A stretch of 64,000 bases of DNA from the NCBI GenBank assembly GCA_025361185.1, contig JANYAR010000001.1, forward strand, positions 1 through 64,000, given 5' to 3'. Shown piece after piece: positions 35,275 through 52,473 of this stretch (the stretch's first letter is position 1; the number at the start of each line of letters is the position of its first letter). This stretch comes from Alphaproteobacteria bacterium (lineage in GTDB: Bacteria; Pseudomonadota; Alphaproteobacteria; Micropepsales; Micropepsaceae). The translations under genes were made by a program, and so were the position numbers. Under the pieces are notes generated by a model. The model searched no databases, was not told where the DNA came from, and was given only the letters and a program-made list of their open reading frames with translations.

Positions 35275-37095
35275 TTAGTCTTTTGGCACGACGTCAAACG
35301 CTATCGTCGTGCGCGGATGCGCATCGCGGAACGGTATGGTGCCGTGCCACATATAGGACGGAAAAAGCACTAGCCGTCCGGGCCGGGGCTGAATGGCGCG
35401 GCGGATCGGGTCTTTCAGCGTGACATCCAGCGCCGGTTCGCCGAACTTGATCCAGCCTTGCCGGCCTTGCGCGTCCTCTACTGCCGGCGGCAAGGCGACA
35501 TAGTAGCAGGAACTGATCCACCCCTCGGGGTGGACATGGTTGGTGTGAAAGCCGCAATCGCGCAACCGCGACGACCACGAGCCGGTATAGTCGAAATTGC
35601 GCGCGCGCCGCGCCAGGAAGGGATGTTTATCGTCCGCTTTCATGCCCGCGATATAGCGGCCGACCGCCTCGCGAATGCGGATCTGGAGCCGCTCCACCAG
35701 ATCGTGGCCCACCCCGAACAACTTGTTGGGCGTCTGGGTGCCGTTGCGCAGCGATTGTTCCAGATACTCCCGGGTCGCGGGATGGGCCCGCTCCAGCCAG
35801 GCATTGAGCTCGGCGTTAAAGCTTTCCATGTCGGAAAAGCCCTTGGGCGGATCGAGGTCGTAGATCTGGATCAGCGAATCATAGCCGTTCAGCACCTCGT
35901 CGCGTTCATCCTCCAGCATGCGCCAGGCCGTTCCCAGGATCGCCAGCGCCACCTGGTCGTTCGGCGCCAGTGCCACGCTGCGCTCACACAGGGCGGCCGC
36001 CTTCCCGGCATCGCCGGCGGATATCGCGGCCTCGGCGGCGCAGCTGAGCAGGTCCGGCTCATCGCCGTGCCGTGTCAGCAAGCCATCAAGCACCTTCTGC
36101 GCTTCGCCGTGCCGTTTCATCATCTTCAGCGTGTTGCCGACGCCGATGGCGGCGATCTTGTTGTCCGGATCCAGCCGCAACGCTTCGCGGTAGACCCGAT
36201 GGGCTTCCTCGCCGCGTTTTTCGTGACTAAGGAAATGGGCCTTGGACAGCAGCAGCCCCACCGTCTTGGGCGCGCGGTCATAGGATTTCAGATAATCGTC
36301 GCGGCCCAGCCGGTACATCAGGTCGTTGTGGAATTGGTGCCATTGCGGATTGGCGGGATCGCGCGCAATCAGACCGCTGCTTAGCTCGGCCGCGTCATCA
36401 TAGCGTTTGAGCTTCTGCAAAATCTCCGCGCGCGAGGCGTCGGTGACGAGTTCCGGGTTGATCGCTGCGGACTTGTCGTAATTCTCCAAGGCCTCCTGGT
36501 CCTTGCCCTGGCGATAGAGCGCCAGGCCCAGCGATCGATGCAGGATGGCGCGCATCTGCGGCGGGACGTCTTGCTGCAGGGCTTCGCGCAACAAGGGTTC
36601 GGCTTCTTTCGGCCGCTGAGTGGCGAGCAGCACTTCGCCCAAGGCCAGCTTGGCGCGGGCATTGTCCGGCAAGTTCTGAAGCCACTGGCGGAATATGGCC
36701 TCGGCCTGACCCTGCTCACCCAGCTGCTGCAGTGTGGTGCCCGCCTCATAATAGGCCTCGGCATAGTCGGGCTTGAGCGCGATGGCGTGCTTGAAGGCCT
36801 CTATCGCCTCGCCATGCCGCTCCAGCCATCGCAGCGCCGTACCGTGACTGAAAGCCAGGACGGCCTCGCGCGGATTGGCGGCGCGGGCTTTTTCGAACTG
36901 CCTGGCAGCCTCCTCGAAGCGCTGCTGATGCATCCGCACCAGCCCGGCCACGTGCAGCAGCCGCGGGTCGTCGGCGAAGCGTTCCAGAAGGGGGGCCAGC
37001 GCCGCATCGGCGGCCTCAGCGTCGCCGGCCCGCAGATATTGGTTGGCCAACGCGAGGGTGTGCTGGAGGGCCGGGATGGCTTGGATTGTGACCAT
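35275..37095 (-). CDS. TPR protein with C-terminal 2OG-Fe(II) oxygenase-like domain
   Basis: N-terminal TPR array; C-term GFHTNHVHPEGWISSCYYVALPP...GWIKFGEP...PRPGRLVLFPSYMWHGTIPF...RTTIAFDVVP. Confidence 0.85.
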   Translation of the reverse strand: MVTIQAIPALQHTLALANQYLRAGDAEAADAALAPLLERFADDPRLLHVAGLVRMHQQRFEEAARQFEKARAANPREAVLAFSHGTALRWLERHGEAIEAFKHAIALKPDYAEAYYEAGTTLQQLGEQGQAEAIFRQWLQNLPDNARAKLALGEVLLATQRPKEAEPLLREALQQDVPPQMRAILHRSLGLALYRQGKDQEALENYDKSAAINPELVTDASRAEILQKLKRYDDAAELSSGLIARDPANPQWHQFHNDLMYRLGRDDYLKSYDRAPKTVGLLLSKAHFLSHEKRGEEAHRVYREALRLDPDNKIAAIGVGNTLKMMKRHGEAQKVLDGLLTRHGDEPDLLSCAAEAAISAGDAGKAAALCERSVALAPNDQVALAILGTAWRMLEDERDEVLNGYDSLIQIYDLDPPKGFSDMESFNAELNAWLERAHPATREYLEQSLRNGTQTPNKLFGVGHDLVERLQIRIREAVGRYIAGMKADDKHPFLARRARNFDYTGSWSSRLRDCGFHTNHVHPEGWISSCYYVALPPAVEDAQGRQGWIKFGEPALDVTLKDPIRRAIQPRPGRLVLFPSYMWHGTIPFRDAHPRTTIAFDVVPKD

Positions 37096-37289: not shown

Positions 37290-38447
37290 GTGAGCGCGGA
37301 TTTGTATCTCGTTGATGCCGGATGGGTCCTGTCGGCCGTCGCAGTGGCAGGCACGGCCTACACCTTGCTGGCTGCCTTGCTGGTTGGCCGCTTCATGCGC
37401 AAGCCGCCGAGCGCGGTGCGCAGTTGCCCGGCCGTGACCATCCTCAAGCCGCTTCACTTTGGCGAGCCGGATCTTTCGCGCAATCTGGAGACCTTCGTCA
37501 CGCAAGACTATGACGGCCCGGTTCAGATCGTCTTCGGGGTGCAGGATCCGAACGATCCGGCCTTGGCGGTGGTGCGCGCGTTGCAAGCCAAGTATCCCGC
37601 TTTCGATACCGCCATTGTGGTGGATGGGGCGCGCTATGGCGCCAATGCCAAGGTCTGCAACCTGATCAACATGCTGGCCGCCGCGCGCCATGACACGCTG
37701 GTGCTTTCGGACAGCGACATTTCCGTTGGGGCTTTGTGGCTGTCGCAGGTCACTGCCGCGCTGGCGCGGCCCGGTGTCGGTATCGTGACCTGTCTTTACA
37801 CCGGCGAAGCCGCTGGTGACGGTCACAAGCTGTGGTCGGCGCTCGCGGCCATGGGGACCTCCTATAATTTTCTGCCCAATGCGCTGTTGGGAACGTCGCT
37901 GGGATTGGCCGCGCCGTGCTTCGGCTCCACCATTGCGCTCAAGCGCCAGACGCTGGAGGAAGTGGGAGGGTTTGCCGCTTTCGCCGACCAGCTGGCCGAT
38001 GACCATGAGTTGGGCCGGGCGGTACGCAGCAAGGGCCATGCCTTGGCAATCCCCGCCATGGGCGTGAGCCATACCGCGGCCGAGAACAGTGTCGGCGAGA
38101 TGTTCCGTCATGAACTGCGTTGGACCCGCACGATTCGGATGGTGAACCCCGCCGGTCATTTTGGCAGCTTTGTCACCCATGGTTTCGCCTTTGCGCTGAT
38201 GGGCGCAATCTTGCTTGGTTTTAACCCTGTCAGCCTGGGCATCCTGGCAACGGCTTTGGCGGCCCGGCTGGTCCTGAAAAACCGGGTTGACGGGCATTTC
38301 GGCACCTATGCCGGACCTTATTGGCTAATGCCATTGCGCGATCTGTTAAGCTTCGCGGTGTTCGTGGTCTCGCTGTCCGGCGAAACCGTGCATTGGCGCG
38401 GGACTCACTTTGCGGTAGAGCCTTCCGGCGCGATGTCCCGGGTCTGA
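37290..38447 (+). CDS. hpnI: Hopanoid-associated glycosyltransferase HpnI
   Basis: Ceramide-glucosyltransferase-like GT2: VTILKPLHFGEPDLSRNLETFVTQDYDGPVQIVFGVQDPNDPA, LVLSDSDISV; first gene of hpn locus. Confidence 0.88.
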   Translation: MSADLYLVDAGWVLSAVAVAGTAYTLLAALLVGRFMRKPPSAVRSCPAVTILKPLHFGEPDLSRNLETFVTQDYDGPVQIVFGVQDPNDPALAVVRALQAKYPAFDTAIVVDGARYGANAKVCNLINMLAAARHDTLVLSDSDISVGALWLSQVTAALARPGVGIVTCLYTGEAAGDGHKLWSALAAMGTSYNFLPNALLGTSLGLAAPCFGSTIALKRQTLEEVGGFAAFADQLADDHELGRAVRSKGHALAIPAMGVSHTAAENSVGEMFRHELRWTRTIRMVNPAGHFGSFVTHGFAFALMGAILLGFNPVSLGILATALAARLVLKNRVDGHFGTYAGPYWLMPLRDLLSFAVFVVSLSGETVHWRGTHFAVEPSGAMSRV

Positions 38448-38500
38448 GACCTGAAATGTTTCACGACGTTCCCGCACTTTTGCGGGCATGAGGTTTGACG

Positions 38501-39928
38501 ATGATGAAGTCCCTTTTCCTCCAGGCTCCGTCCTTCGACGGCTATGACGGCGGCGCCGGCGCGCGCTATCAGATGAAGCGGGAAGTGAAGAGCTTCTGGT
38601 TTCCCACCTGGCTGGCCCAGGCCGCCGCGATGGTGCCGGGCGCGCGCCTGATCGACGCCCCGCCGCACAACACCTCCTTCAAGGACATCGAGGAAGACGT
38701 GAAGGCGCATGAGCTGATCGTCATCCACACCTCGACCCCCAGCTTCAAGTCCGACTGCAAGACGGCCGGCATGATCCGTGCCCTCAATCCCACAGCCAAG
38801 ATCGGCTTCATCGGCGCCAAGGTGGCGGTCGAGCCGGTGGAAAGCATGGAAGCCTGCGCCGCGCTCGATTTCGTCTGCCGCAACGAATATGAGTTCACCA
38901 TCCAGGAACTGGCGCGCGGCGATGATTGGGCCGGCATCAAGGGCCTGACCTGGCGCAACGCATCACACGAGATCATTTCCAATCCCGAACGCGAAATCCT
39001 CAAAGATATGGACCAGCTGCCGTCGGTGCTGCCGATGTACAAGCAGTTGAATGTCGAAAAGTATTTCGGTGGCTACCTGCTGCACCCCTACATGTCCTGG
39101 TACACGGGACGGGGCTGCAAATCCCGTTGCACCTTCTGCCTGTGGCCGCAGACCATCGGCGGGCACAATTACCGCTTCAAGTCGATCGAGAAAGTGGTCG
39201 AAGAGGTCAAGTATGTGCAGCGCGAATTCCCGCAAGTGAAGGAAATCTTCTTCGACGACGACACGCTGACCGACAATCACGACCGCGTCGAAGCCCTGGC
39301 CAAGGAATTGGGCAAGCTGGGCATGGCATGGTCGTGCAACGCCAAGGCCAATGTACCGCGCAAGACCTTGGAAGCGATGAAGGCGGGTGGTCTTCGCCTG
39401 CTGCTGGTCGGCTATGAATCCGGCAACCAGCAGATCCTGCACAACATCAAGAAGGGCTTGCTCGTCCCGGTCGCCAAGCGCTTTGCCAAGGATTGCCATG
39501 ACCTGGGCATTGTGGTGCACGGCACTTTCATCCTGGGCCTGCCCGGCGAGACCCGCGAGACCATCCAGGAAACCCTGCGTTTCGCCAAGGAAGTCAATCC
39601 GCACACCATCCAGGTGTCGCTGGCCGCGCCCTATCCCGGCACCTTTCTCTACAAGCAGGCCAAGGAAAATGGCTGGTTCGCGTCCGACGTGGATTTGTTG
39701 ACCGACGACGGCACCCAGATCGCGCCCTTGAACTATCCCCATCTCGGCCACACCGAAATCTTCAACTCGGTGGAGGACTTCTACAAGAAGTTCTACTTCC
39801 GCCCCTCCAAGATCATGGAGATCGTCAAGGAGATGCTGACCTCGCGCGACATGCTGGTGCGCCGTCTGCGCGAAGGCGTGGAGTTCTTCCAGTTCCTCAA
39901 GAACCGCGAAGACATGATCGTTTCCTGA
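38501..39928 (+). CDS. hpnJ: Hopanoid biosynthesis radical SAM protein HpnJ
   Basis: LLHPYMSWYTGRGCKSRCTFCLWPQT (CxxxCxxC), B12-binding-like N-terminus, 476 aa; context hpnI-hpnK. Confidence 0.92.
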   Translation: MMKSLFLQAPSFDGYDGGAGARYQMKREVKSFWFPTWLAQAAAMVPGARLIDAPPHNTSFKDIEEDVKAHELIVIHTSTPSFKSDCKTAGMIRALNPTAKIGFIGAKVAVEPVESMEACAALDFVCRNEYEFTIQELARGDDWAGIKGLTWRNASHEIISNPEREILKDMDQLPSVLPMYKQLNVEKYFGGYLLHPYMSWYTGRGCKSRCTFCLWPQTIGGHNYRFKSIEKVVEEVKYVQREFPQVKEIFFDDDTLTDNHDRVEALAKELGKLGMAWSCNAKANVPRKTLEAMKAGGLRLLLVGYESGNQQILHNIKKGLLVPVAKRFAKDCHDLGIVVHGTFILGLPGETRETIQETLRFAKEVNPHTIQVSLAAPYPGTFLYKQAKENGWFASDVDLLTDDGTQIAPLNYPHLGHTEIFNSVEDFYKKFYFRPSKIMEIVKEMLTSRDMLVRRLREGVEFFQFLKNREDMIVS

Positions 39929-39933
39929 GCGCG

Positions 39934-40785
39934 GTGAAGCAGCTCATCGTCACTGCGGACGACTTCGGCGCCGCCATGGAAGTCAACGAAGCGGTCGAGC
40001 TTGCCCATCGTGGTGGCATTCTATCCGCCGCCAGTCTGATGGTGGGCGGTGCCGCCGCCGCTGATGCGGTGGCGCGGGCCCGCAATCTTCCTTCCCTGCG
40101 TGTTGGACTCCATCTGGTCTTGGTCGAGGGAAAGCCGGTGCTGCCGGCCGCGTCCGTGCCCGACCTGGTGGATTCACGCGGGTTTTTCCGCAGCGACATG
40201 GCGCGCGCCGGCGCCGCGATGTTCTTTTTTCCAAAGCTGCGCCGCCAGCTCGCCGCCGAGATCGACGCCCAGTTCGCCGCCTTCGCCGCCACCGGCCTGA
40301 CACTGGACCATGTCAACGCCCACAAGCATTTCCATCTCCACCCCACCATCGCCGCCCTGATCGTCAAAGCGGCGAAGGCCCATGGCGTGAAAGGGGCGCG
40401 CGTGCCGCTGGAGCCGCAAGCGGTGCTGGGCCGGATCGAAAACCACAAGCCGTCCGGCGTCGTGGCGTTGACCGCGCCGTTTGCCAGAGCCTTGCGCGCC
40501 CGTTTCTGGCGCGCCGGAATCACCGCGCCCGATTCTGTCTTCGGCCTGGCCTGGTCCGGCGCCATGACGCTCCCGCGCCTCGCCGGATTGATCGAACACC
40601 TGCCCGAGGGTCTCAGCGAAATCTATATGCATCCCGCCACCGGCCCTTACCCGGGATCGGCCCCGGGCTACCAGTATGCCGGCGAGCTGGCGGCCCTGAC
40701 CGATCCAAGCCTGCCGTCCCTGCTGGCGGCGCGGGGGGTTCGGACAGGTGGTTTTGGAGACTTTTTCTCTCAATGGATTCAATAG
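39934..40785 (+). CDS. hpnK: Hopanoid biosynthesis deacetylase HpnK (YdjC-like); GTG start
   Basis: KQLIVTADDFGAAMEVNEAVELAHRGGILSAASLMVGG, LDHVNAHKHFHLHPTI. Confidence 0.92.
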   Translation: MKQLIVTADDFGAAMEVNEAVELAHRGGILSAASLMVGGAAAADAVARARNLPSLRVGLHLVLVEGKPVLPAASVPDLVDSRGFFRSDMARAGAAMFFFPKLRRQLAAEIDAQFAAFAATGLTLDHVNAHKHFHLHPTIAALIVKAAKAHGVKGARVPLEPQAVLGRIENHKPSGVVALTAPFARALRARFWRAGITAPDSVFGLAWSGAMTLPRLAGLIEHLPEGLSEIYMHPATGPYPGSAPGYQYAGELAALTDPSLPSLLAARGVRTGGFGDFFSQWIQ

Positions 40786-40885
40786 CTTAAATCAATGTAC
40801 CGGTACTATATTTTGCGGTTCAATTGAGGCCCCCAAAAGGGTAATGCAGTAGCCAGACAGGAGCCCCCGTGAGCAGGTTTGTTCC

Positions 40886-41806
40886 ATGAGTAGTCCGGCC
40901 TTCGCCATTCCGCCCGACCTGACCCGTGACACCGGCGCCTGGCCGGGTGACGGCCCGATCAAGTTCGGCAGCGACGCCCACAAGCGGCTGTTCTGCAAGA
41001 CGCTGCTGGACACCCATGATCCCTACAAGCCGGCGGTGCTGGATTGGCCCAAGCTGGGCGCGGAAGCCGAAAAGCGCATCACGTCGCTGCCCATCTGGGA
41101 CATCGCGGTGCAGACCGAGAACCGCGCCGGGCTGAATGTCTGCACCTATGCCGAAAGCGTGCCGGACCCGCTGTTGCGCAAGGCGATCGAGCTGAACGGC
41201 TTTGAAGAGCGCCGCCACCGCCATGTGCTGGCCAATCTGGTGGAAGCCTATGGCATCAAGCTGGCGCCCGAGCCGGTCTATGAAAAGCCCAAGAACCCGG
41301 AATGGGCTTTCATGGTCACCGGCTACAGCGAGTGCATCGATAGTTTCTTCGCCTTCGGCCTGTTCAAGGCGGCGATGGACACCGGCTTCTTCCCGCCCGA
41401 ATTGATCCAGACCTTCGATCCGGTGGTGAATGAGGAAGGCCGCCACATCCTGTTCTTTGTGAACTGGGTCGCCTGGCACCGCCGCAACATGCCGTGGTGG
41501 CGCAGGCCCTATTTCGAGCTGAAGGTCCTCGCGGTCTGGCTGTTCCTGATTTACGAGCGTATGGGCATCGCCTCCGATGTCTCCAACGGCCAGCAGGACA
41601 ACAATTTCACCGTCACCGGCGCTGAACAGCTGGGATCGGACATCAATGTCGGCGAGCTGATCGCGCTCTGCGTGGCCGAGAATGACCGGCGCCTGGCGCC
41701 CTTTGACGCTCGCCTCAAGCGTCCGCGCTTTGTGCCCTTCATGGCCAGGCTGGCGTTGAAGTTCATCGGGCCCCCCAAAAAAGCAAATAAGCAGAAGGCC
41801 GCGTGA
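40886..41806 (+). CDS. Ferritin-like diiron protein A, hopanoid-locus associated
   Basis: E(NRAG..x28..)F-E-E-RRH and GYSE..x33..NE-E-GRH: two E-x(n)-EE-x2-H half-sites; 34% or so visible similarity to next gene was not computed, but motif spacing is identical. Confidence 0.75.
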   Translation: MSSPAFAIPPDLTRDTGAWPGDGPIKFGSDAHKRLFCKTLLDTHDPYKPAVLDWPKLGAEAEKRITSLPIWDIAVQTENRAGLNVCTYAESVPDPLLRKAIELNGFEERRHRHVLANLVEAYGIKLAPEPVYEKPKNPEWAFMVTGYSECIDSFFAFGLFKAAMDTGFFPPELIQTFDPVVNEEGRHILFFVNWVAWHRRNMPWWRRPYFELKVLAVWLFLIYERMGIASDVSNGQQDNNFTVTGAEQLGSDINVGELIALCVAENDRRLAPFDARLKRPRFVPFMARLALKFIGPPKKANKQKAA

Positions 41807-42654
41807 TGAAAATCGGATCGCCGGAACATCGCGACACCTTCTGCAAGCATTTCATGCAGACCTATACCGAATTCGATCCCGACACATTGCCGTGGCCGGA
41901 TCTGGACGAGGCGGCGCTGACGCGCTTGAAATCCGTGCCCTTCTGGGAAGAGGTCTTCTACACCGAGCGCCGGGCCGGGGCGATCGTGGCGGAGTTCGTC
42001 AAGACCGTGAAGGACCCAGTGATGAAGGAAGCCGTGGCGCTGCAGGGCTTCGAGGAAGCCCGCCACGCCAAGCTGATCCGGGTGATGATCGAGAAATACG
42101 GCATCGATGCGACAGAGCGCCCGCTGGAGGATGTCAGCGACAATGTCGAAACCCGCTTCAAGGATTTCGGTTTCGGCGAATGCATGGACAGCTTTCTGGG
42201 TTTCGGTGTCTTCAAGATCGCCCTGCAGTCACAGTTTTTACCCAAGGAGATGTTCGCCATCTTCGAAACCCTGATGTACGAGGAAACCCGCCACATTGTC
42301 TTCTTCGTCAACTGGATGGCCTATAACCAGGCGCAGAAGGGCGCTCTCGCCAAGCTGATGCTGCCCTTCACGGATTTCCGGTTTTACATGCGCGCCCTGG
42401 GCCGCATGGTCGGCACCGCCAAACGCGGCAAGGAGCTGAACGACGGCAAGGAATTTTCCGCAACCCAGGCATCGGTATTCCTGGACGGCTTTACCTTCCG
42501 CCGTTTCCTGGAAGACTGCTATTCCGAGAACCGCCGCCGCATGGGGGTCTTCGACTCCGAATTGCTGCGTCCCAGCTTCCTGCCCCAACTGGCGGAAACC
42601 GCGCTGGGCGCCATGCGCCTGTGGAGCTTCCGCGCCAAGCCACTGCCCGCGTAA
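41803..42654 (+). CDS. Ferritin-like diiron protein B, paralogue of preceding gene
   Basis: YTERRAG...GFEEARH and GFGECMDSFLGFGVFKIAL...YEETRHIVFFVNWMAY; ATGA overlap with diiron A and TAATG overlap with hpnL. Confidence 0.75.
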   Translation: MMKIGSPEHRDTFCKHFMQTYTEFDPDTLPWPDLDEAALTRLKSVPFWEEVFYTERRAGAIVAEFVKTVKDPVMKEAVALQGFEEARHAKLIRVMIEKYGIDATERPLEDVSDNVETRFKDFGFGECMDSFLGFGVFKIALQSQFLPKEMFAIFETLMYEETRHIVFFVNWMAYNQAQKGALAKLMLPFTDFRFYMRALGRMVGTAKRGKELNDGKEFSATQASVFLDGFTFRRFLEDCYSENRRRMGVFDSELLRPSFLPQLAETALGAMRLWSFRAKPLPA

Positions 42655-43631
42655 TGAAGTGGACCCCAAAGATCGGGGTAGCCTTGGCGCTACTGGCCGG
42701 ACTTGTTGCCGCCTTCTATGTGGTCTGGTCGGTCGGCTTCGATCCGATTTTTGCGGCAATCGCCCGTGCCGGTGTTGGAGGACTCGCGCTGCTGTGCCTG
42801 TATGCGCTGGCGGTTTTCGTCAGTCTGGCATTTGCCTGGTATTTCCTGCTGCCGCCGCAACAACGCCATCCTGCCACCCAATTGTATGTCGCCCGGCTGG
42901 TGCGTGACTCCATTGCCGAGATTTCGCCTTTCTCGCCGGTCGGCGGCATGGTCGCGGCGGCGCGGCTGATGACGCTCAAAGGAATGAGCGCAGCCTATGC
43001 GGCGGCTTCCGTTGCCGCCGACGCCACCACCGAGGCGATGGCACAGGTGGTGTTCCTGGCTTTCGGGCTGGGCCTGGGATTCACGCAGTTCCACCATTTG
43101 CAGGGCTCCGGCCACTTGACCGAGGCGATGCTGGCCGTGCTGCTGCTGGCGGTGCCTGGTATCGCGCTGCTGATTTTCATGCAGAAGAGGGGCGCCGGTT
43201 TGGCGGAAAGGATCGCAATGCGCTTCTTTCCGCGAGCACTGGCAGGCGTCTCCTTCCATGCGGCCATCGAAGAACTTTATGATTCCCACGCGCGGCTGGC
43301 GGCGTCCGCGGCGCTGCATCTTGTCGCCTGGATCGGGGCCGGTGGTGGTACCTTCATCGCTTTCCGCCTGGTCGGGGGGCACATCAATCTGCTGAATGCC
43401 ATCGCCCTGGAGGCCCTGCTCAGCACCTTGCGCAGCATCGCCGCCCCGGTCCCGGCGGCCGTCGGGGTGCAGGAATGGGGTTATGCCATGCTGGCGCCTT
43501 TGTTCGGGCTTCCCGCCGAAATGGGGGTGGCGGTATCCCTGCTCAAGCGCGCGCGCGAAATCGTGCTGGGGATTCCCGCATTGATCTATTGGCAAAGTGT
43601 CGAAGGCCGAAAGGCGCTGACCGATGTCTGA
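42654..43631 (+). CDS. hpnL: HpnL, flippase-like (LPG synthase TM-type) membrane protein
   Basis: Multiple TM segments, RDSIAEISPFSPVGGMVAAARLMTLKGMSAAYAAASVAADATTE, PVPAAVGVQEWGYAMLAPLFGLP; context. Confidence 0.88.
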   Translation: MKWTPKIGVALALLAGLVAAFYVVWSVGFDPIFAAIARAGVGGLALLCLYALAVFVSLAFAWYFLLPPQQRHPATQLYVARLVRDSIAEISPFSPVGGMVAAARLMTLKGMSAAYAAASVAADATTEAMAQVVFLAFGLGLGFTQFHHLQGSGHLTEAMLAVLLLAVPGIALLIFMQKRGAGLAERIAMRFFPRALAGVSFHAAIEELYDSHARLAASAALHLVAWIGAGGGTFIAFRLVGGHINLLNAIALEALLSTLRSIAAPVPAAVGVQEWGYAMLAPLFGLPAEMGVAVSLLKRAREIVLGIPALIYWQSVEGRKALTDV

Positions 43632-44613
43632 TATCGCGCTGGTCACGGGAGCATCGGGTTTCGTCGGCTCCGCCGTGGCGCGGGCCCTGGTGGCGCGCGG
43701 CTTGCGCGTGCGGGTGGTGCTGAGGGCCAACGCGTCGCGCCTCAACATCGCGGGTGTGGACTGCGAGCCCGTGATCGGCGACATGCGCGACGAAATTTCC
43801 ATGACCGCCGCCCTGAAGGGTGCGCGCTATCTGTTTCATGTCGCGGCCGACTATCGCCTTTGGGCGCGCGATCCCGGTGAGATCGAGCGCAACAATCTCG
43901 CCGGCGCCCGCGCCACCATGGGCGCGGCCCTAAAATGCGGTGTGGAGCGAGTGGTTTATACCTCCTCGGTTGCGGCCCTGAAGCCCGGGGACAGCGCGGT
44001 CGACGAGACGTCTCGTCATACACCGCAAAGCGTGATCGGCGCCTATAAGCGCAGCAAGTTGGTGGCGGAACGCGAGGTCGAACGTCTTGTGCGGGACGAG
44101 GGGCTGGCCTGCGTGATCGTGGCGCCGTCCACCCCCATCGGTCCGCGCGACATCAAACCCACGCCCACAGGAAGGGTGATTGTGGAAGCCGCCACGGGGC
44201 GCATGCCCGCTTTTGTCGACACCGGGCTCAATCTGGTGCATGTCGATGACGTGGCCCAGGGCCATTTGCTGGCGCTGGACAAGGGGCGCATCGGCGAGAA
44301 TTATATCTTGGGCGGCACGGATGTTGCGTTGGAGACCATGCTGGGGGATATCGCCTTTCTGTCGGGCCGCCGCGCGCCAAGTTTGAAATTGCCCCGCGCA
44401 CCACTCTTCCCCTTGGCCTGGGCGGCGGAAGCCTTCGCGCGCGTCACCGGCAAGGAGCCGTTCCTTACCGCCGACGCGCTGCGCATGTCGCGCTACCGCA
44501 TGTTCTTCAGCTCGGACAAGGCCGTGCGGGAGCTGGGCTATGCGCCGCGCCCCTACAAGGAAGGCTTGACGGACGCGCTGAACTGGTTTGGCGAGAACGG
44601 ATACCTCAAATGA
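43624..44613 (+). CDS. hpnA: Hopanoid-associated sugar epimerase HpnA
   Basis: NAD-binding ALVTGASGFVGSAVARALVARGLRVRVVLR; YKRSKLVAE; context. Confidence 0.93.
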   Translation: MSDIALVTGASGFVGSAVARALVARGLRVRVVLRANASRLNIAGVDCEPVIGDMRDEISMTAALKGARYLFHVAADYRLWARDPGEIERNNLAGARATMGAALKCGVERVVYTSSVAALKPGDSAVDETSRHTPQSVIGAYKRSKLVAEREVERLVRDEGLACVIVAPSTPIGPRDIKPTPTGRVIVEAATGRMPAFVDTGLNLVHVDDVAQGHLLALDKGRIGENYILGGTDVALETMLGDIAFLSGRRAPSLKLPRAPLFPLAWAAEAFARVTGKEPFLTADALRMSRYRMFFSSDKAVRELGYAPRPYKEGLTDALNWFGENGYLK

Positions 44614-45767
44614 TCGCGGGTATTCTGTTCGGCTTTGTGCCGCTGGCGGTGTGGCTGTATCTGCTGCTGTTTCGCGGGGGTTTCTGGCTGCTGCGCGAGC
44701 GCGACACCGCGCCGGTGGACCAGCCCGCATCCTGGCCCTCGGTGGTGGCGGTGGTCCCGGCCCGCAACGAGGCCGATGTGATCGGCCGCAGTATCGGCAG
44801 TCTGCTGGCCCAGGATTATCCGGGGCCTTTGCATATCGTGCTGGTGGATGATCAGTCCGATGACGGCACCGGCCCGTTGGCGCGCAGGTTGAATCCGGAT
44901 CGCCTGACGGTCCTGACGGGCGGCACCCGTCCGCAGGGCTGGACCGGGAAACTCTGGGCCATGAAGCAGGGCAGCGATTATGCCGCGGTTTTTGGATCCG
45001 AATTTCTCTGGTTCACCGACGCCGATATCGTCCATGCCCCCGACAATCTGCGTCATCTGGTGGGCCGCGCCCAGGCTGGAAACAATGTTCTGGTGTCGCT
45101 GATGGCGCGGCTGTCGTGCAAAAACCTCGCCGAGCATTTCCTGATTCCCGCTTTTGTCTTTTTCTTCGACATGCTGTTTCCCTTTGCTGCCGTCAACAAT
45201 CCAGCCAGCAAGGTCGCGGCCGCGGCCGGCGGCTGCATGCTGGTGCGCCGCCAGGCGCTGGAAAAGGCGGGCGGCCTGGCCGCCATCGGCCACAATATCA
45301 TCGACGATTGTGCGCTGGGCCGGGCGATGAAGGCGCAAGGGCCGATCTGGCTGGGCCTGACCGACCGCGCCGTCAGCCTGCGCCCTTATGAACATCTTTC
45401 CGACATCCGCCACATGGTGACGCGCACCGCCTATGCCCAGCTGGGCTATTCCCCGCTGGTTCTGGCGGCAACCTTGTTCGGGCTGGCAATGGTCTATCTT
45501 GCGCCCGTGATGACGGCGCTGTTTGCCTGGGGCATTTCGCAAATGGCCGGCTGGCTGGCCTGGATCATCATGGCGGTGATGTATCAGCCGATTCTGCGTT
45601 TCTATCGGCTGTCTCCGCTCTGGGGGCTGGCGCTGCCGCTTATCGGCCTCTTCTATGCCGGCTTCACATGCCAGTCCGCGATCCTATATTGGTCGGGCAA
45701 GGGCGGCATGTGGAAGGGCAGGGCGCAGGCCCAGGCCAGTGCAAAAAGCGCCGGGAATCAAGCATGA
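44610..45767 (+). CDS. hpnB: Hopanoid-associated glycosyltransferase HpnB
   Basis: GT2: VVAVVPARNEADVIGRSIGSLLAQDYPGPLHIVLVDDQSDDGT; HNIIDDCALGRAMKAQG; context. Confidence 0.92.
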   Translation: MIAGILFGFVPLAVWLYLLLFRGGFWLLRERDTAPVDQPASWPSVVAVVPARNEADVIGRSIGSLLAQDYPGPLHIVLVDDQSDDGTGPLARRLNPDRLTVLTGGTRPQGWTGKLWAMKQGSDYAAVFGSEFLWFTDADIVHAPDNLRHLVGRAQAGNNVLVSLMARLSCKNLAEHFLIPAFVFFFDMLFPFAAVNNPASKVAAAAGGCMLVRRQALEKAGGLAAIGHNIIDDCALGRAMKAQGPIWLGLTDRAVSLRPYEHLSDIRHMVTRTAYAQLGYSPLVLAATLFGLAMVYLAPVMTALFAWGISQMAGWLAWIIMAVMYQPILRFYRLSPLWGLALPLIGLFYAGFTCQSAILYWSGKGGMWKGRAQAQASAKSAGNQA

Positions 45768-46615
45768 GCAGTGTCGCCGAACTGCAATCGGGCAAAGGCC
45801 ATCGCGACGAGAATTTCCCCGTTGCGTCGTTCCTGATCGCGCCTCGGCACCGCGCTCCGGTGCTGGCCTTTTACAATTTCGTGCGCGCCGCCGACGATGT
45901 GGCGGACAATGCGTCTACGCCGCCGGAAGAAAAGCTGGCTCTTCTGGAGCAGATGCGCGCCAGCCTGGTGGGCAAAAGCGAGTGCGTGCCGCAGGGCGTG
46001 GCGTTGCGCGTCATCCTGGAGGAACGCGGCCTGCCCGTGGTGCATGCGTTGGATTTGCTGGAGGCCTTTCGCCGCGACTGCACCAAGCTTCATTATCGCG
46101 ATTGGGATGACCTGATCGATTATTGCCGCTACAGCGCCATGCCGGTGGGCCGTTTTGTCCTGGACGTGCATGGCGAAAACAAAAGCCTGTGGCCGGCCAA
46201 CGACGCGCTATGCGCGGCGCTGCAGGTGATCAACCATCTGCAGGATTGCGCCAAGGATTTTTCCGAGTTGAACCGGGTCTATATTCCGCAAGCCCTATTG
46301 GCCGCAGCCGGGATCGGGACCCAGGCGCTGGGCGAGGACAAGGCCAACCCTGCCCTGGCCGGGGTGATATCCGGCCTGGCGCGCCGGAATGCCGAACTGC
46401 TGGAAATTTCGCGGCCCTTCGCGCGAGGGATAAAAGACGGCCGGCTTGCGCTGGAAGTCGATCTCATCCAAACCCTGGCGGACGATCTGAACACCATGCT
46501 GATGAACCGCGATCCGCTGTCGCAAGCCGTGCATCATTCCAAGATGGATGTCGCCGCTCTATTCATGAAACGTCTTCCCGCCTTTGCCCTGATGCGCCTG
46601 ATGCGCAAAACATAA
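45764..46615 (+). CDS. hpnC: Squalene-synthase-like HpnC
   Basis: NFPVASFLIAPRHRAPVLAFYNFVRAADDVADN, NHLQDCAKDF; ATGA overlap with hpnB. Confidence 0.93.
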   Translation: MSSVAELQSGKGHRDENFPVASFLIAPRHRAPVLAFYNFVRAADDVADNASTPPEEKLALLEQMRASLVGKSECVPQGVALRVILEERGLPVVHALDLLEAFRRDCTKLHYRDWDDLIDYCRYSAMPVGRFVLDVHGENKSLWPANDALCAALQVINHLQDCAKDFSELNRVYIPQALLAAAGIGTQALGEDKANPALAGVISGLARRNAELLEISRPFARGIKDGRLALEVDLIQTLADDLNTMLMNRDPLSQAVHHSKMDVAALFMKRLPAFALMRLMRKT

Positions 46616-46635: not shown

Positions 46636-47493
46636 ATGAACAACGCAGAAAATATCGGTTCTCCGGCCGCAAAGGCGGTGAAGAAAAAGGCCAGCACAAG
46701 CTCCTTCTATATCGCCATGCGCTTGATGCCGGCGGAAGCGCGCGACGCCATGTTCGCGATCTATGCTTTTTGCCGCAAGGTGGACGATATCGCCGATGAC
46801 GGCATCGGCACGCGTGCACAGCGGCACGAGAAGCTGGAGCAGTGGCGCTCCGATCTGCGCCGGCTTTATGCCGGCGATGGGACGCCGCAGGTCCGCTTCC
46901 TGGCGCCGGCGGTGGCGCAATATGGTCTCAGGCTCGAGGATTTTCTCAGTGTTCTGGATGGAATGGAGATGGACGTGGCCGAGGATATCGTCGCGCCCAG
47001 TCTTGCCACGCTGGACCTTTATTGCGACCGGGTGGCCAGCGCGGTGGGGCGTTTATCTATTAAGGTGTTTGGTATGGAGGAGGCGCCGGGTTTCGAATTG
47101 GCGCGGCATCTGGGCCGGGCGCTGCAGCTGACCAATATCCTGCGCGATATCGACGAAGACGCCGAGGTTGGGCGGCTCTATTTGCCGCGGGAATATCTGG
47201 AGGAACTCAATTGCTGCCGCTCGCTCGATCCGCTCGCGATCGTGGCGCGGCCGGAAATCGACGCGGTCTGCCGCCGCGTGGCCGGGCTGGCGCATCATCA
47301 TTACGACCAAGCGCAAGCCATCCTGGCGGCGCGGCCGAAAGGGCGGATCAAGACGCCGCGCCTGATGGGCGCGGTCTATTCCGAGATTTTGCGCGCCAGC
47401 GAGGCACAGGGTTTTGCAGCCCCGCGCCGCCGCGTCTCGCTGCCCAAGAGCAAGCTTCTGTCTCTGGTGCTGCGCCAGGGGCTCTTCTCGTGA
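46636..47493 (+). CDS. hpnD: Presqualene diphosphate synthase HpnD
   Basis: SSFYIAMRLMPAEARDAMFAIYAFCRKVDDIADDG, LTNILRDIDEDAEVGRLYLPREYL. ORF-track start 46123 rejected (reads over hpnC). Confidence 0.94.
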   Translation: MNNAENIGSPAAKAVKKKASTSSFYIAMRLMPAEARDAMFAIYAFCRKVDDIADDGIGTRAQRHEKLEQWRSDLRRLYAGDGTPQVRFLAPAVAQYGLRLEDFLSVLDGMEMDVAEDIVAPSLATLDLYCDRVASAVGRLSIKVFGMEEAPGFELARHLGRALQLTNILRDIDEDAEVGRLYLPREYLEELNCCRSLDPLAIVARPEIDAVCRRVAGLAHHHYDQAQAILAARPKGRIKTPRLMGAVYSEILRASEAQGFAAPRRRVSLPKSKLLSLVLRQGLFS

Positions 47494-47503
47494 GTCCGCG
47501 CGG

Positions 47504-48757
47504 ATGACTGGCAAAGCTTACGTCGTAGGTGCGGGCTTGGCGGGCCTGTCCGCCGCCACCATCCTGGCGGCGCGCGGCGCCGCCGTCACCGTGATCGAGG
47601 CGGCAGGACAGGCCGGTGGACGCTGCCGGTCCTATTTCGATGCCGCCATTGGCGGGGTGATCGACAATGGCAATCACTTGGTGCTTTCGGGGAACCGGGC
47701 GGTTCATGATTATCTGGCGCGCATCGGCGCGCACGACGCTCTGGCCGGCCCGCCGCGCGCCGAATTCGCTTTTGTGGACCTGCGCGATGGCCTTCGTTGG
47801 ACGCTGCGGCCCAATGAAGGCCGCGTGCCCTACTGGATAACACGCGCGTCACGCCGGGTGCCGGGCACAAAGGCGTCCGATTATGCCAAATATGCGCCCC
47901 TGCTGTGGGCGGACAAGAAAACAAGCATCGGCGACAGGATCGCCGATCGGGGCCCCTTGTGGGAAAGACTGATGCGACCCTTTCTGCTGGCCGCACTCAA
48001 TACAGAACCGGAACAATCGTCCGCGGCGTTGGCTGGCGCCGTATTGCGCGAGACTCTGGCCAAGGGCGGGCGGTTCTACCGCCCGCGCATCGCCCATCCC
48101 ACATTGGCCGCCGCCTTTGTCGATCCCGCGCTCCAATTGCTCAGCGGCAAGAACGCATCCTTGCTGATGGGAACGCGCCTACGCGGCCTGACATTCAATG
48201 GCCGTCTTGCGATGGCTCTCAACACCGGGGAGGCGACCTTGCCGGTTTCCTCAGGTGATGTGGTGGTTCTGGCGGTGCCGCCCTGGGCCGCCGCCGACCT
48301 GATTGCCGGCCTTGTCGTGCCCAATGATTTTCGCGCCATCGTCAATGCCCATTTCAAGATGCCGGCGCCTGCCGGCATTCCGCCCATTCTGGGCGTGATT
48401 GGCGGGACCGCGGAGTGGATATTTTCCTTCCATGACCGCATCTCGGTCACGGTGTCGGGGGCGGACGCCATCGTCGACCAGGACCGCGAGGATCTTGCCA
48501 CGCGGATCTGGGCCGATGTCGCCAAGGCGCTGGGTATCACGGCCCCCATGCCGGCGTGGCAGATCGTCAAGGAAAAGCGCGCCACCTTCGCCGCCACGCC
48601 CGCCCAGGATGCCCGCCGCCCGGCGGCCAAAACGCAATGGCGCAACCTGTTTTTGGCGGGCGACTGGACCCAGACGGGCTTGCCGGCAACCATCGAAGGG
48701 GCGTTGCGCTCCGGCGAAGTGGCCGCGGCTTTGGCGTGCCGCCATCTATCTCTATAG
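47504..48757 (+). CDS. hpnE: Hydroxysqualene dehydroxylase HpnE (FAD)
   Basis: MTGKAYVVGAGLAGLSAATILAARGAAVTVIEAAGQAGGRCRSY; C-term LFLAGDWTQTGLPATIEGALRSGEVAAAL. Confidence 0.94.
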   Translation: MTGKAYVVGAGLAGLSAATILAARGAAVTVIEAAGQAGGRCRSYFDAAIGGVIDNGNHLVLSGNRAVHDYLARIGAHDALAGPPRAEFAFVDLRDGLRWTLRPNEGRVPYWITRASRRVPGTKASDYAKYAPLLWADKKTSIGDRIADRGPLWERLMRPFLLAALNTEPEQSSAALAGAVLRETLAKGGRFYRPRIAHPTLAAAFVDPALQLLSGKNASLLMGTRLRGLTFNGRLAMALNTGEATLPVSSGDVVVLAVPPWAAADLIAGLVVPNDFRAIVNAHFKMPAPAGIPPILGVIGGTAEWIFSFHDRISVTVSGADAIVDQDREDLATRIWADVAKALGITAPMPAWQIVKEKRATFAATPAQDARRPAAKTQWRNLFLAGDWTQTGLPATIEGALRSGEVAAALACRHLSL

Positions 48758-48764
48758 TGGCGTG

Positions 48765-50708
48765 ATGAACCAGCTGAACCCCGGCGAATTCAGCGCCCCT
48801 CCCTTGGATGAGGTTGAAGGCGCGATCCGCGCCGCCACCGACGCCATCCTGTCCCAGCAGAAGCCCGACGGCCACTGGGTCTATGAGCTGGAGGCCGACG
48901 CCACCATTCCGGCGGAATATGTGCTTTTGGTGCATTACCTGGCGGAAGAGCCCGACCTGGAGCTGGAGCGCAAGATCGGCGTCTATCTGCGCCGCATCCA
49001 GGGCGCCCATGGCGGCTGGCCGCTCTATCATGACGGCGCCTTCGACATTTCCGCGACGGTGAAAGCCTATTTCGCCCTCAAGATGATTGGCGACGACATT
49101 GACACGCCGCACATGGCGCGGGCCCGCGAAGAAATCCGCAAGCGTGGCGGCGCCATCAAGGCCAATGTCTTCACCCGCATTCTTCTGGCGCTGTATGGCC
49201 AAACCAGTTGGTCAAATGTGCCCACCGTGCCGGTGGAGCTGATCCTGCTGCCGCGCTGGTTCCCGGTGCATCTGTCCAAGATGAGCTATTGGGCTCGTAC
49301 CGTGATCGTGCCGCTGCTGGTGCTGGCGGCGAAAAAGCCGCTGGCACGTAACCCGCGCGGCGTGCATATCCCCGAACTGTTTGTGGCCGGCGTGCCCGCC
49401 GCCTCGCCGCGCGCGCCGCATCAGAGCGCTGGCTGGTCGGCTTTCTTTGCCGTCCTGGACAGGATTTTGAAACTTGTACCCTGGCCCAGGGGCCTGCGGG
49501 CGCGTGCGATTGAAAAGTGCTGCGCCTGGACCACTGAGAGGCTGAACGGCGAAGACGGGCTGGGCGCGATCTATCCCGCCATGGCCAACAGCGTGATGAT
49601 GTATGATGTGCTGGGTTATCCGCCCACTCATCCCGACCGCGCCATCGCCCGCAAATCGGTGGAAAATCTGCTGGTGGTCAAGGATGCGGAAGCCTATTGC
49701 CAGCCCTGCTTTTCGCCCGTTTGGGACACCGCCCTGGTGGCGCATGCGCTGCTGGAGACCAAGGAGGCGCGTGCCGAGGCCGCCGTGGCGCGCGCCCTGG
49801 AATGGCTGAGGCCCCTGCAAGTGCTGGACGTGAAAGGCGACTGGGCCGAGGAAAAGCCCGATGTCCGCCCCGGCGGCTGGGCCTTTCAGTATCGCAACGA
49901 TTATTATCCCGATCTCGATGACACCGCAGTCGTGGTGATGGCGATGGACCGCGCCAAGGAACGCGGCGCCTACAAGGAGGCAATCGCCCGTGGCGCAGAA
50001 TGGGTAGAAGGCCTGCAAAGCCGTGACGGCGGTTGGGGCGCCTTCGATGCCGACAACAGCTATACTTATCTGAACAACATTCCCTTCGCCGATCATGGCG
50101 CGCTGCTCGACCCGCCCACCGAAGATGTGTCGGGGCGCTGCGTCGGCATGATGGCGCAACTGGGCGCGAAAACTGACGATCCGCGCCTGAAGGCAGGCAT
50201 CGATTATCTGATCCGCACCCAGCGCGAGGATGGAAGCTGGTGGGGCCGCTGGGGCGTCAACTATGTCTATGGCACCTGGTCGGCCCTGGCGGGCCTGAAC
50301 GGCGCGGGCCTGGTGGCGGACCATCCCACCATGAAACGCGGCGCCGATTGGCTGGCGGCGATCCAGAATCCCGATGGCGGTTGGGGCGAGAATTGCAACA
50401 GCTACAGGCTGGACTACAAAGGTTATGAGCCCGCGCCTTCCACCGCATCACAGACCGCCTGGGCGCTGCTGGGCCTGATGGCGGCGGGCGCGGTAGATCA
50501 TCCGGCGGTGGCGCGCGGCATCAATTATCTTAAGGCCACGCAAGAAGCCGACGGTTTGTGGAGCCAGGCCCATTACACCGGCGGCGGTTTCCCGCGCGTG
50601 TTCTACCTGAACTATCATGGCTATCCGAAATTCTTCCCGCTCTGGGCCCTGGCGCGCTACCGCAATCTGAAGACCGGCAATTCGCGGCGGGTCGAGTACG
50701 GGCTGTGA
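48765..50708 (+). CDS. shc: Squalene-hopene cyclase
   Basis: QW repeats and DLDDTAVVVMA (DxDD); DGSWWGRWGVNYVYGTWSALAGLNGAG; ~647 aa. Confidence 0.97.
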   Translation: MNQLNPGEFSAPPLDEVEGAIRAATDAILSQQKPDGHWVYELEADATIPAEYVLLVHYLAEEPDLELERKIGVYLRRIQGAHGGWPLYHDGAFDISATVKAYFALKMIGDDIDTPHMARAREEIRKRGGAIKANVFTRILLALYGQTSWSNVPTVPVELILLPRWFPVHLSKMSYWARTVIVPLLVLAAKKPLARNPRGVHIPELFVAGVPAASPRAPHQSAGWSAFFAVLDRILKLVPWPRGLRARAIEKCCAWTTERLNGEDGLGAIYPAMANSVMMYDVLGYPPTHPDRAIARKSVENLLVVKDAEAYCQPCFSPVWDTALVAHALLETKEARAEAAVARALEWLRPLQVLDVKGDWAEEKPDVRPGGWAFQYRNDYYPDLDDTAVVVMAMDRAKERGAYKEAIARGAEWVEGLQSRDGGWGAFDADNSYTYLNNIPFADHGALLDPPTEDVSGRCVGMMAQLGAKTDDPRLKAGIDYLIRTQREDGSWWGRWGVNYVYGTWSALAGLNGAGLVADHPTMKRGADWLAAIQNPDGGWGENCNSYRLDYKGYEPAPSTASQTAWALLGLMAAGAVDHPAVARGINYLKATQEADGLWSQAHYTGGGFPRVFYLNYHGYPKFFPLWALARYRNLKTGNSRRVEYGL

Positions 50709-50718
50709 GAGCGCATCC

Positions 50719-51381
50719 GTGACCATTCTCGCCGTCACAGGCTTGGCGAAGGAAGCCGAGATGGCCGGCGTCGCCGGGGTGGTGGCGGTGGCCGGCGGCG
50801 GCGACGCGGATGGTCTGGCGCAAAAACTCAACGCCCTGCATGGCGATATCCGCGGGGTGATCTCCATCGGCCTGGCGGGCGCCTTGTCGCCACTCCTGCA
50901 GGTCGGCCATGTGGTGATCGCCGACCAGATCATGACCGGCGCCGAGATATGGGACTGCCACGAAACCTGGCGTGTGCGGCTGACATCGCGCCTGCCTTAC
51001 GCCCACCAGGGGCAGATATTCGGCAGCGATGTGATCATCGACAAAGCGGATACCAAGTCCGCCCTGCATGCCGCCACCGGCGCCCTGGCGGTGGATATGG
51101 AAAGCCAGGTGGCGGCCCGCTTTGCCGCCTCTCGCAATGTGCCGCTGGCGGCCTTGCGGGTGATTTCCGACGACGCGACCCATGTGCTGCCGCCCGCGGC
51201 CCTGGTGGCGATGAAGCCGGATGGCGGCATCGCCATCGGCAGGGTGCTGGGGTCGCTGCTGCGCAAGCCGGGGCAAGTGCCGGCGCTGATCCGCACGGCG
51301 CGGACCTCGAACAAGGCGTTTGCGGAATTACTCCGCTGCCTCAATCTCTGTGGTGTTGGAATTGCCGGCCTTGATCTGTGA
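50719..51381 (+). CDS. hpnG: Hopanoid-associated phosphorylase HpnG; GTG start
   Basis: TILAVTGLAKEAEMAGV, GVISIGLAGALSPLLQVGHVVIADQI, AVDMESQVAARFA. Confidence 0.9.
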   Translation: MTILAVTGLAKEAEMAGVAGVVAVAGGGDADGLAQKLNALHGDIRGVISIGLAGALSPLLQVGHVVIADQIMTGAEIWDCHETWRVRLTSRLPYAHQGQIFGSDVIIDKADTKSALHAATGALAVDMESQVAARFAASRNVPLAALRVISDDATHVLPPAALVAMKPDGGIAIGRVLGSLLRKPGQVPALIRTARTSNKAFAELLRCLNLCGVGIAGLDL

Positions 51382-52473
51382 CATCTTGTGCTCGACATGA
51401 CGCGAGAAGGTGAACTCGGCCGGACGCTGCTTTGACAGGTCGATCTCCGGCGCCATCGGGCCTTCGGTCTTCACGCCGCGCATCAGGATCGGCAACATCT
51501 TGAGCGGATGTTTGATGGCGTCGGTGGCCGCCGTGCCTTCGAAGCCGCAATGCACCATGCAGTTGGCGCATTTCTCGTACTTGCCGACGCCGTATTTCTC
51601 CCACTCAGTGCCTTCCATCAGCTCCTTGAAGGTCGCGGCATAGCCTTCGCCGAGCAGGTAGCAGGGCTTCTGCCAGCCGAACACGGTGAGCAGCGGCATG
51701 GACCAGGGGGTGCATTCATAGGTCTGATTGCCGGCCAGGAAGTCCATGAACAGGCTGGAATTGGTGAATTCCCAGTCCTTGCCGCCATGGCCGCGGGCCA
51801 GAATATCGCGGAACATTTTCTTGGTGCGCTCGCGGTTGAGGAAATGCTGCTGGTCGGGCGCGCGTTCATAGGCATAGCCGGGCGACACGGTCATGCCGTC
51901 CACGCCCATCGCCATCATTTCGTCGAAGAACTTTGCGGTGCGCTCCGGGTCTGTACCATCAAAAAGGGTGCAGTTGATCTGGGTGCGGAAGCCCTTGGAC
52001 TTGGCCAGCTTGATGGCGGCAATAGCGCGGTCATAGGTGCCGTCCTGGCACACCGACTTGTCGTGCATCCCCTTGTCGCCGTCCAGATGGATGGACCAGG
52101 TGAAATTGGGATGCGGCTTGTACTGGTCGATCTTCTTGGCCAGCAGCAGCGCGTTGGTGCACAGGATGACGAACTTGTCGCGCGCGATATAGCCTTCCAC
52201 GATCTTGGCCATGTCGCGGTGGAGCAGGGGCTCGCCGCCGGCGATGGAGACGGCGGGCGCGCCGCACTCATCGATCGCATCCATGCACTGCTGATAGGCC
52301 ATGCGCTGGTTCAGGATCTCGTCGGGATAATCGATCTTGCCGCAGCCGGCGCAGGCCAGGTTGCAGCGGAACAGCGGTTCCAGCATCAGCACCAGCGGGT
52401 ACTTCTTGCCCGAGAGTTGTTTCTTGACGACATAGGCGCCGATCTTGGCGGCCTGGCGCAGCGGAAGTCCCAT
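51328..52473 (-). CDS. hpnH: Adenosylhopane synthase-type radical SAM protein HpnH
   Basis: MLEPLFRCNLACAGCGKIDYP (CxxxCxxC), SIAGGEPLLHRDM; SPASM-like C-term. Confidence 0.95.
   Translation of the reverse strand: MGLPLRQAAKIGAYVVKKQLSGKKYPLVLMLEPLFRCNLACAGCGKIDYPDEILNQRMAYQQCMDAIDECGAPAVSIAGGEPLLHRDMAKIVEGYIARDKFVILCTNALLLAKKIDQYKPHPNFTWSIHLDGDKGMHDKSVCQDGTYDRAIAAIKLAKSKGFRTQINCTLFDGTDPERTAKFFDEMMAMGVDGMTVSPGYAYERAPDQQHFLNRERTKKMFRDILARGHGGKDWEFTNSSLFMDFLAGNQTYECTPWSMPLLTVFGWQKPCYLLGEGYAATFKELMEGTEWEKYGVGKYEKCANCMVHCGFEGTAATDAIKHPLKMLPILMRGVKTEGPMAPEIDLSKQRPAEFTFSRHVEHKMSQIKAGNSNTTEIEAAE

Follow-up and report, generated by a model that had tools for sequence, protein, structure and literature searches.

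AurF, the p-aminobenzoate N-oxygenase (PF11583), combines a ferritin-like diiron carboxylate fold with two E...ExxH half-sites. Diiron enzymes also include desaturases as well as AcsF, whose lipid-like substrate is oxidised at an aliphatic CH2, and MiaE hydroxylates an alkyl side chain. The enzymes of optional hopanoid tailoring downstream of HpnH or shc, namely HpnO, HpnP, HpnR and HpnIJK, are of the aminotransferase, radical SAM, glycosyltransferase or deacetylase kind and include no oxygenase, and no diiron enzyme tied to hopanoids was found in the open-access literature searched. The genes for bacteriohopanepentol (BHpentol) and bacteriohopanehexol (BHhexol) are stated to be unknown in a survey published in 2025, which covered 54 cultured Alphaproteobacteria and inspected the hpn surroundings without finding a candidate (PMC12583986).

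Here we describe two genes, dfA and dfB (together df), located in an hpn cluster within a 64,000-nucleotide stretch of alphaproteobacterial DNA (contig JANYAR010000001.1, referred to as the window). An initial annotation of the window took them for diiron enzymes carrying out an O2-dependent tailoring of the hopanoid head group after HpnI, HpnJ and HpnK, possibly as a heterodimer. Our analysis points to the side chain instead, and we consider dfA and dfB the leading candidates for the enzymes through which extended hopanoids gain their fifth and sixth hydroxyls.

Organisation of the locus

The open reading frames and the NCBIfam scores of the neighbouring genes agree that two intact paralogous genes lie between hpnK and hpnL (Table 1), as the initial annotation had it. 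The two products share 33% identity over 267 aligned residues, gap-free, and dfB gains one residue (283 aa) if the GTG at 41803 is used rather than the ATG at 41806. With regard to translational coupling, the TAATG junction between dfB and hpnL was described correctly, but dfA and dfB do not meet in the ATGA that was claimed; the actual overlap is TGATG (stop 41804-41806, start 41806-41808). dfA is separated from hpnK by 100 bp, no sigma-70-like promoter was detected in 40700-42800, and no further df copies occur in the source genome.

Table 1. Features of the hpn cluster around dfA and dfB (window coordinates)
Feature	Position	Strand	Product or role	Profile support
hpnI	37290..38447	+	Glycosyltransferase	TIGR03472, 440 bits (cut-off 310)
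hpnJ	38495..39928	+	Radical SAM, cyclitol ether formation	TIGR03471, 740 bits (cut-off 577.6)
hpnK	39934..40785	+	Deacetylase of BHT-N-acetylglucosamine, upstream of dfA	TIGR03473, 359 bits (cut-off 232.6)
dfA	40886..41806	+	306 aa, putative ferritin-like oxygenase with diiron ligands, proposed to hydroxylate bacteriohopanepolyols at C-31	
dfB	41806..42654	+	282 aa, paralogue with all six ligands, proposed to hydroxylate C-30 as the second step	
hpnL	42654..43631	+	Membrane protein, TAATG-coupled to dfB	TIGR03476, 237 bits (cut-off 195.65)
hpnA, hpnB, hpnC	43624..46615	+		TIGR03466, TIGR03469, TIGR03464, above cut-off
hpnD, hpnE, shc, hpnG	46639..51381	+		hpnD: TIGR03465, above cut-off; others by gene order and tblastn conservation across relatives
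hpnH	51328..52473	-	Adenosyl-hopene transferase, bacteriohopanepolyol gateway	TIGR03470, 528 bits, above cut-off

Two further features of the cluster were observed. Divergent from hpnI, a gene on the minus strand (window 35275-37095) encodes a TPR protein that ends in a putative 2OG-Fe(II) oxygenase domain (PF13759) and may represent another oxygenase adjoining the hpn cluster. Moreover, comparison of hpnJ (window 38495-39928) with loci L001-L055 revealed two identity classes, about 83-98% and about 62-72%, that are out of step with the flanking genes. This pattern suggests that hpnJ alleles have been swapped within the genus, and the allele classes might be linked to the unexplained cyclitol ether isomers that have been reported.

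Diiron ligands and predicted fold

The identical spacing of the half-sites in the two proteins was confirmed on recounting: E-x29-E-x2-H followed by E-x34-E-x2-H, formed by E78, E108 and H111 with E149, E184 and H187 in dfA, and by E54, E84 and H87 with E125, E160 and H163 in dfB. None of the six ligands varied among 15 aligned sequences drawn from both paralogues or in a set of 22 diverse sequences, and they were at least 99% conserved over 111 dfA rows, a set that includes some near-identical ones; as judged from these alignments, such conservation is far beyond chance. In the AlphaFold model of dfA, built from the 15-sequence alignment (pLDDT 82, pTM 0.82), each half-site sits on its own helix pair, the four successive helices spanning residues 71-89 (E78), 95-121 (E108/H111), 138-166 (E149) and 178-201 (E184/H187). 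In the model the ligands of dfA are thus distributed over four helices that form a ferritin-like/R2 bundle, as expected for a member of the ferritin-like diiron carboxylate superfamily. Together, the invariant ligands and their modelled helix placement lend support to the suggestion that dfA and dfB are ferritin-like diiron oxygenases of a type outside the named hpn genes.

Relationship and partnership of dfA and dfB

In the phylogenetic tree dfA and dfB form separate clades (support 100/100), which identifies them, on the evidence of their sequences, as ancient paralogues. dfB accompanies dfA in the genus of the source genome, in Rhodospirillales-like genomes and in genomes G125 and G173, and in the genomes examined it always occurred together with a diiron gene, which was dfA except in Methylococcus-like genomes, where a different one takes its place. 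At six loci, L068 among them, dfA and dfB are fused in a single reading frame of ~585 aa; the AlphaFold model of the fusion has a pTM of 0.50 and does not settle how the halves pack. The heterodimer idea is therefore supported as far as a physical or functional partnership is concerned, given the six fusions and the constant diiron partner of dfB, but not every case calls for a heterodimer, since most lineages carry dfA without dfB.

These observations also bear on the reading that only one paralogue is catalytic and that the other has a supporting part, be it structural, regulatory or in electron transfer, with dfB modulating dfA in a heterodimer. The fusions, the translational coupling and the unfailing diiron partner of dfB would fit such an arrangement. 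We nevertheless regard it as unlikely, because dfB keeps all six ligands, because dfA appears to stand alone in most lineages, and because in Methylococcus-like genomes the partner of dfB is not dfA but a diiron gene that looks unrelated. Most simply, dfB would take as its substrate what a first-step diiron enzyme has produced.

In the Methylococcus-like genomes this other diiron gene, here called the second, is of the AurF type and lies directly upstream of the dfB homologue (L162:8870-9628, L161:9973-10776 and four more). Its product has about 253-268 aa, with ETKH and EINH half-sites. Of 81 Methylococcales genomes it occurs in 6, the very ones that have the dfB homologue, and was for that reason rejected as an explanation for the other Methylococcales.

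Other genes were also seen near df. Genes for copper chaperones of the SCO1/SenC and/or PCu(A)C type stand beside or near df in at least three lineages (L162:10486-11193, L160:8924-9346, L071:9353-9967, L156:3955-4407, L156:7395-7988 and L068:6946-7554), which may hint at a link to copper or the respiratory chain or be coincidental. The Burkholderia dfA, distant from the hpn genes, has upstream of it a gene for an NADPH-dependent FMN reductase (L106:8725-9372, L110:366-1013), a possible electron donor.

Presence and loss of df were followed within the genus of the source genome (n=60). dfA was present in 45 genomes, 21 of which also had dfB, and dfB alone in none; presence of df was associated with that of HpnH (Fisher p 0.003). 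Where a complete hpn cluster has no df, hpnK adjoins hpnL, and in three cases remnants of dfA remain between them. df has thus been repeatedly lost, cleanly or by decay, from otherwise intact hpn clusters, and so behaves as an optional tailoring gene.

Distribution of df relative to HpnH and HpnJ

At least 578 loci encoding relatives were found in the genome collection; most of the best 80, which were retained, lie in hpn clusters, including those of Sphingomonas, Novosphingobium, Dyella and Nevskia. In an evenly drawn sample of 289 alphaproteobacterial genomes, 76 of them HpnH-positive, df occurrence was restricted to HpnH genomes: all 18 df carriers had HpnH, and a strong df match was found in none of the 213 genomes lacking it. 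The hypergeometric probability of this association is 7e-12, 1.5e-9 without the source genus and 6e-7 when counted by family. HpnH was likewise present in all three gammaproteobacterial df carriers, one of which was the chosen centre, and in 10 of 11 further carriers, including some with df distant from the hpn genes (Caulobacter S45, Burkholderia). The proposed tie of df to hopanoid biosynthesis is thereby supported, df recurring with hpn genes in other genomes.

HpnJ behaved differently. It scored above cut-off in only 9 of the 18 df-positive Alphaproteobacteria, while 15 HpnJ-positive genomes had no df, and the dfA of Cupriavidus metallidurans has hpnB, hpnA and hpnH as neighbours, with hpnIJK absent from the 28 kb examined. 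These figures weigh directly on the original proposal that the head group, glucosamine or cyclitol, is what dfA and dfB oxidise once HpnI, HpnK and HpnJ have acted. It is true that df adjoins hpnIJK in the source genus, in Sphingomonads and in Dyella, and that df and HpnJ are weakly associated among HpnH-positive genomes (odds 2.9, p 0.08). With half of the df carriers lacking HpnJ, however, a head-group substrate is not supported, and we now hold it to be quite improbable. Since df tracks HpnH and HpnJ is often absent, df appears to follow the making of extended hopanoids and not the cyclitol branch, which makes the polyol side chain the likelier substrate.

Two individual clusters are described here for their layout. 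In G125, a 5.4 Mb single-contig genome (L152/L153), dfB and dfA flank the hpn cluster, and the stretch read contains no hpnIJK. This layout recalls Enhydrobacter aerosaccus, for which 77% pentol plus hexol is given and cyclitol ethers are not among the bacteriohopanepolyols (BHPs) reported in the text consulted (PMC12583986). In Roseomonas marmotae the hpn cluster is on a plasmid (p1318-3; L184) and is followed by phosphonate genes (aepX, aepY, 2-aminoethylphosphonate transaminase and CDP-alcohol phosphatidyltransferase) and an HpnL-like gene, so that a link to phosphonolipids is possible.

df genotypes and published hopanoid phenotypes

The Methylobacterium, Methylococcus, Methylotuvimicrobium-like and Dyella genomes were assigned to genus from an HpnH tree or from PmoA, with PDB entries as the PmoA reference. 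Sphingomonas formosensis and Sphingobium estronivorans, with 23% and 41% pentol plus hexol (PMC12583986, Table 3), both carry dfA. Hyphomicrobiales all have 0-1% (same table), and a Methylobacterium genome, whose HpnH is identical to that of M. bullatum, is HpnJ-positive and has no df. Burkholderia cenocepacia carries dfA, and its strain K56-2 makes BHpentol cyclitol ether (PMC8560942); a df carrier identified as Methylococcus by PmoA has dfB and the second diiron gene, and Methylococcus capsulatus makes mainly aminopentol (PMC5100885), although for both of these pairs genotype and phenotype come from different strains. Methylomicrobium has no or almost no aminopentol (PMC5100885), and the closely placed genome G605 is df-negative. 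The named pairs are few in all, and they mostly match the published pentol phenotypes. Published pentol values are 1% for Rhizomicrobium palustre and 0% for Novosphingobium rosa. Rhodopseudomonas palustris TIE-1 and Methylorubrum extorquens produce derivatives of BHT but no pentols.

The match between df and published pentols also bears on two other roles. One is a different hopanoid-linked function, either defence of membranes against peroxide or O2 stress or formation of a 32-oxo intermediate before hydration. Rubrerythrins are among the ferritin-like folds, the copper chaperone genes noted above lie beside df in several lineages, and BHpentol has been suggested to arise by a 32-oxo route (PMC12583986); yet df depends strictly on HpnH and not on aerobic life in general, and in the named cases the pentol distribution given in the literature agrees with that of df, so that we accord this function little credence. 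The other role, a hopanoid ring desaturase (delta-6 or delta-11), is rejected as very improbable: Burkholderia and acetic acid bacteria make unsaturated and pentol hopanoids alike, but the dfA-positive Sphingomonas formosensis and Sphingobium estronivorans have only 1% and 0% unsaturated BHPs, so unsaturation does not fit.

The proposed side-chain hydroxylation by df can nevertheless not be the only route. df was found in 7 of 121 Methylococcales genomes, and this order has many aminopentol makers, among them Methylomonas, Methylobacter and Methylovulum (PMC6460317, PMC5100885). Because most Methylococcales are without df, another C-30/C-31 route must exist, and the notion of a single universal C-30/C-31 hydroxylase was rejected. 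Other observations also weigh against the proposal. Desulfovibrio grows anaerobically. It makes aminotetrol, as does Methylotuvimicrobium to some extent (both PMC5100885), and df is absent from a Methylotuvimicrobium-like genome. Rhodopila sp. LVNP, which was grown both anaerobically and aerobically, contains BHpentol cyclitol ether, the culture used for LC-MS being unspecified; its pentols may have been made without O2, which would count against an O2-dependent route.

Proposed function and significance

That df encodes a diiron tailoring enzyme of extended hopanoids is a conclusion in which we have considerable confidence. We see about an even chance that dfA and dfB are O2-dependent diiron monooxygenases of the BHP side chain, with dfA hydroxylating C-31 and dfB C-30, and the positions themselves, C-31 and C-30, are an equally balanced proposal. 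The fuller scheme, in which the two act stepwise in Proteobacteria, first at C-31 and then at C-30, and sometimes as one fused two-domain enzyme, is more tentative. The substrate would be the side chain of bacteriohopanetetrol-type lipids, downstream of HpnH. dfA would insert the C-31 hydroxyl to give the bacteriohopanepentol level, and dfB, needing the first-step enzyme, would then insert the C-30 hydroxyl to reach the level of bacteriohopanehexol or aminopentol. With HpnI, HpnJ and HpnK present, as in the window, the expected products would be glucosamine and cyclitol ethers of BHpentol and BHhexol.

The df family sits, in many genomes, where the survey found no BHpentol or BHhexol candidates (PMC12583986), and the failure of its scores to reach any Pfam or NCBIfam cut-off would account for its having been overlooked near hpn clusters. 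If the proposal is correct, these are the genes for bacteriohopanepentol, bacteriohopanehexol and part of the aminopentol biomarkers of methanotrophs, and a measured lipid trait, used as a bacterial and aerobic methane oxidation biomarker, becomes linked to genes whose numbers can be read from genomes and metagenomes. There would then be an O2-dependent step behind these fossil-forming membrane lipids, and penta- and hexafunctional hopanoids would record O2-dependent chemistry wherever the df route is used.

Comparison with known families

In searches of Pfam, NCBIfam and PDB sequences, dfA and dfB remained below every family cut-off. AurF (PF11583) scored 11.7 bits against dfA and 12.5 against dfB (cut-off 29.6), while Ferritin_2 (20.6 against a cut-off of 24.7) and Rubrerythrin (14.2 against 22.8) matched dfB and gave no match for dfA. 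The same was true of AcsF (NF010172), which matched residues 106-172 of dfB (E 4e-4, 19.6 bits, cut-off 391). Weak profile matches in four df-negative Alphaproteobacteria and one gammaproteobacterium, suspected to be AcsF, turned out to be AurF-family proteins of ~370 aa and not df. Profile alignment of dfA/dfB with PF11583 members by hhalign (probability 91%, 145 columns) brought the ligand segments into register, df EEGRH...FFVNW standing opposite DEGRH...FGVNY of the AurF family. The tie to AurF indicated by these alignments is a remote one only: df shares its probable fold and paired half-sites but is shorter, hopanoid-linked and proposed to hydroxylate carbon rather than nitrogen.

The best structural neighbours of the dfA model in a Foldseek search of the PDB were an R2-like ligand-binding oxidase (R2lox) and ribonucleotide reductase R2 (probability 1.0 but E 0.013 and TM 0.52), with the E and ExxH pairs in the same helix order. 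df differs from both in that no sequence relation was found and no dependence on a radical-transfer partner was seen. A MiaE-like tRNA hydroxylase (PDB 5ux1) covers most of the ligand core of the dfA/dfB profile at a non-significant E of 0.23 and differs in substrate class, and AcsF, the aerobic Mg-protoporphyrin monomethyl ester cyclase, differs from dfB in pathway and length. Within hopanoid biosynthesis df resembles HpnO, HpnP, HpnR and HpnIJK as an optional tailoring function downstream of HpnH and shc, and departs from them as a putative oxygenase. df would accordingly form a new branch of the ferritin-like/AurF/R2 diiron oxygenases, with its catalysis predicted from the ligands and the modelled fold: the kind of enzyme is known, whereas the df family and the role proposed for it are new.
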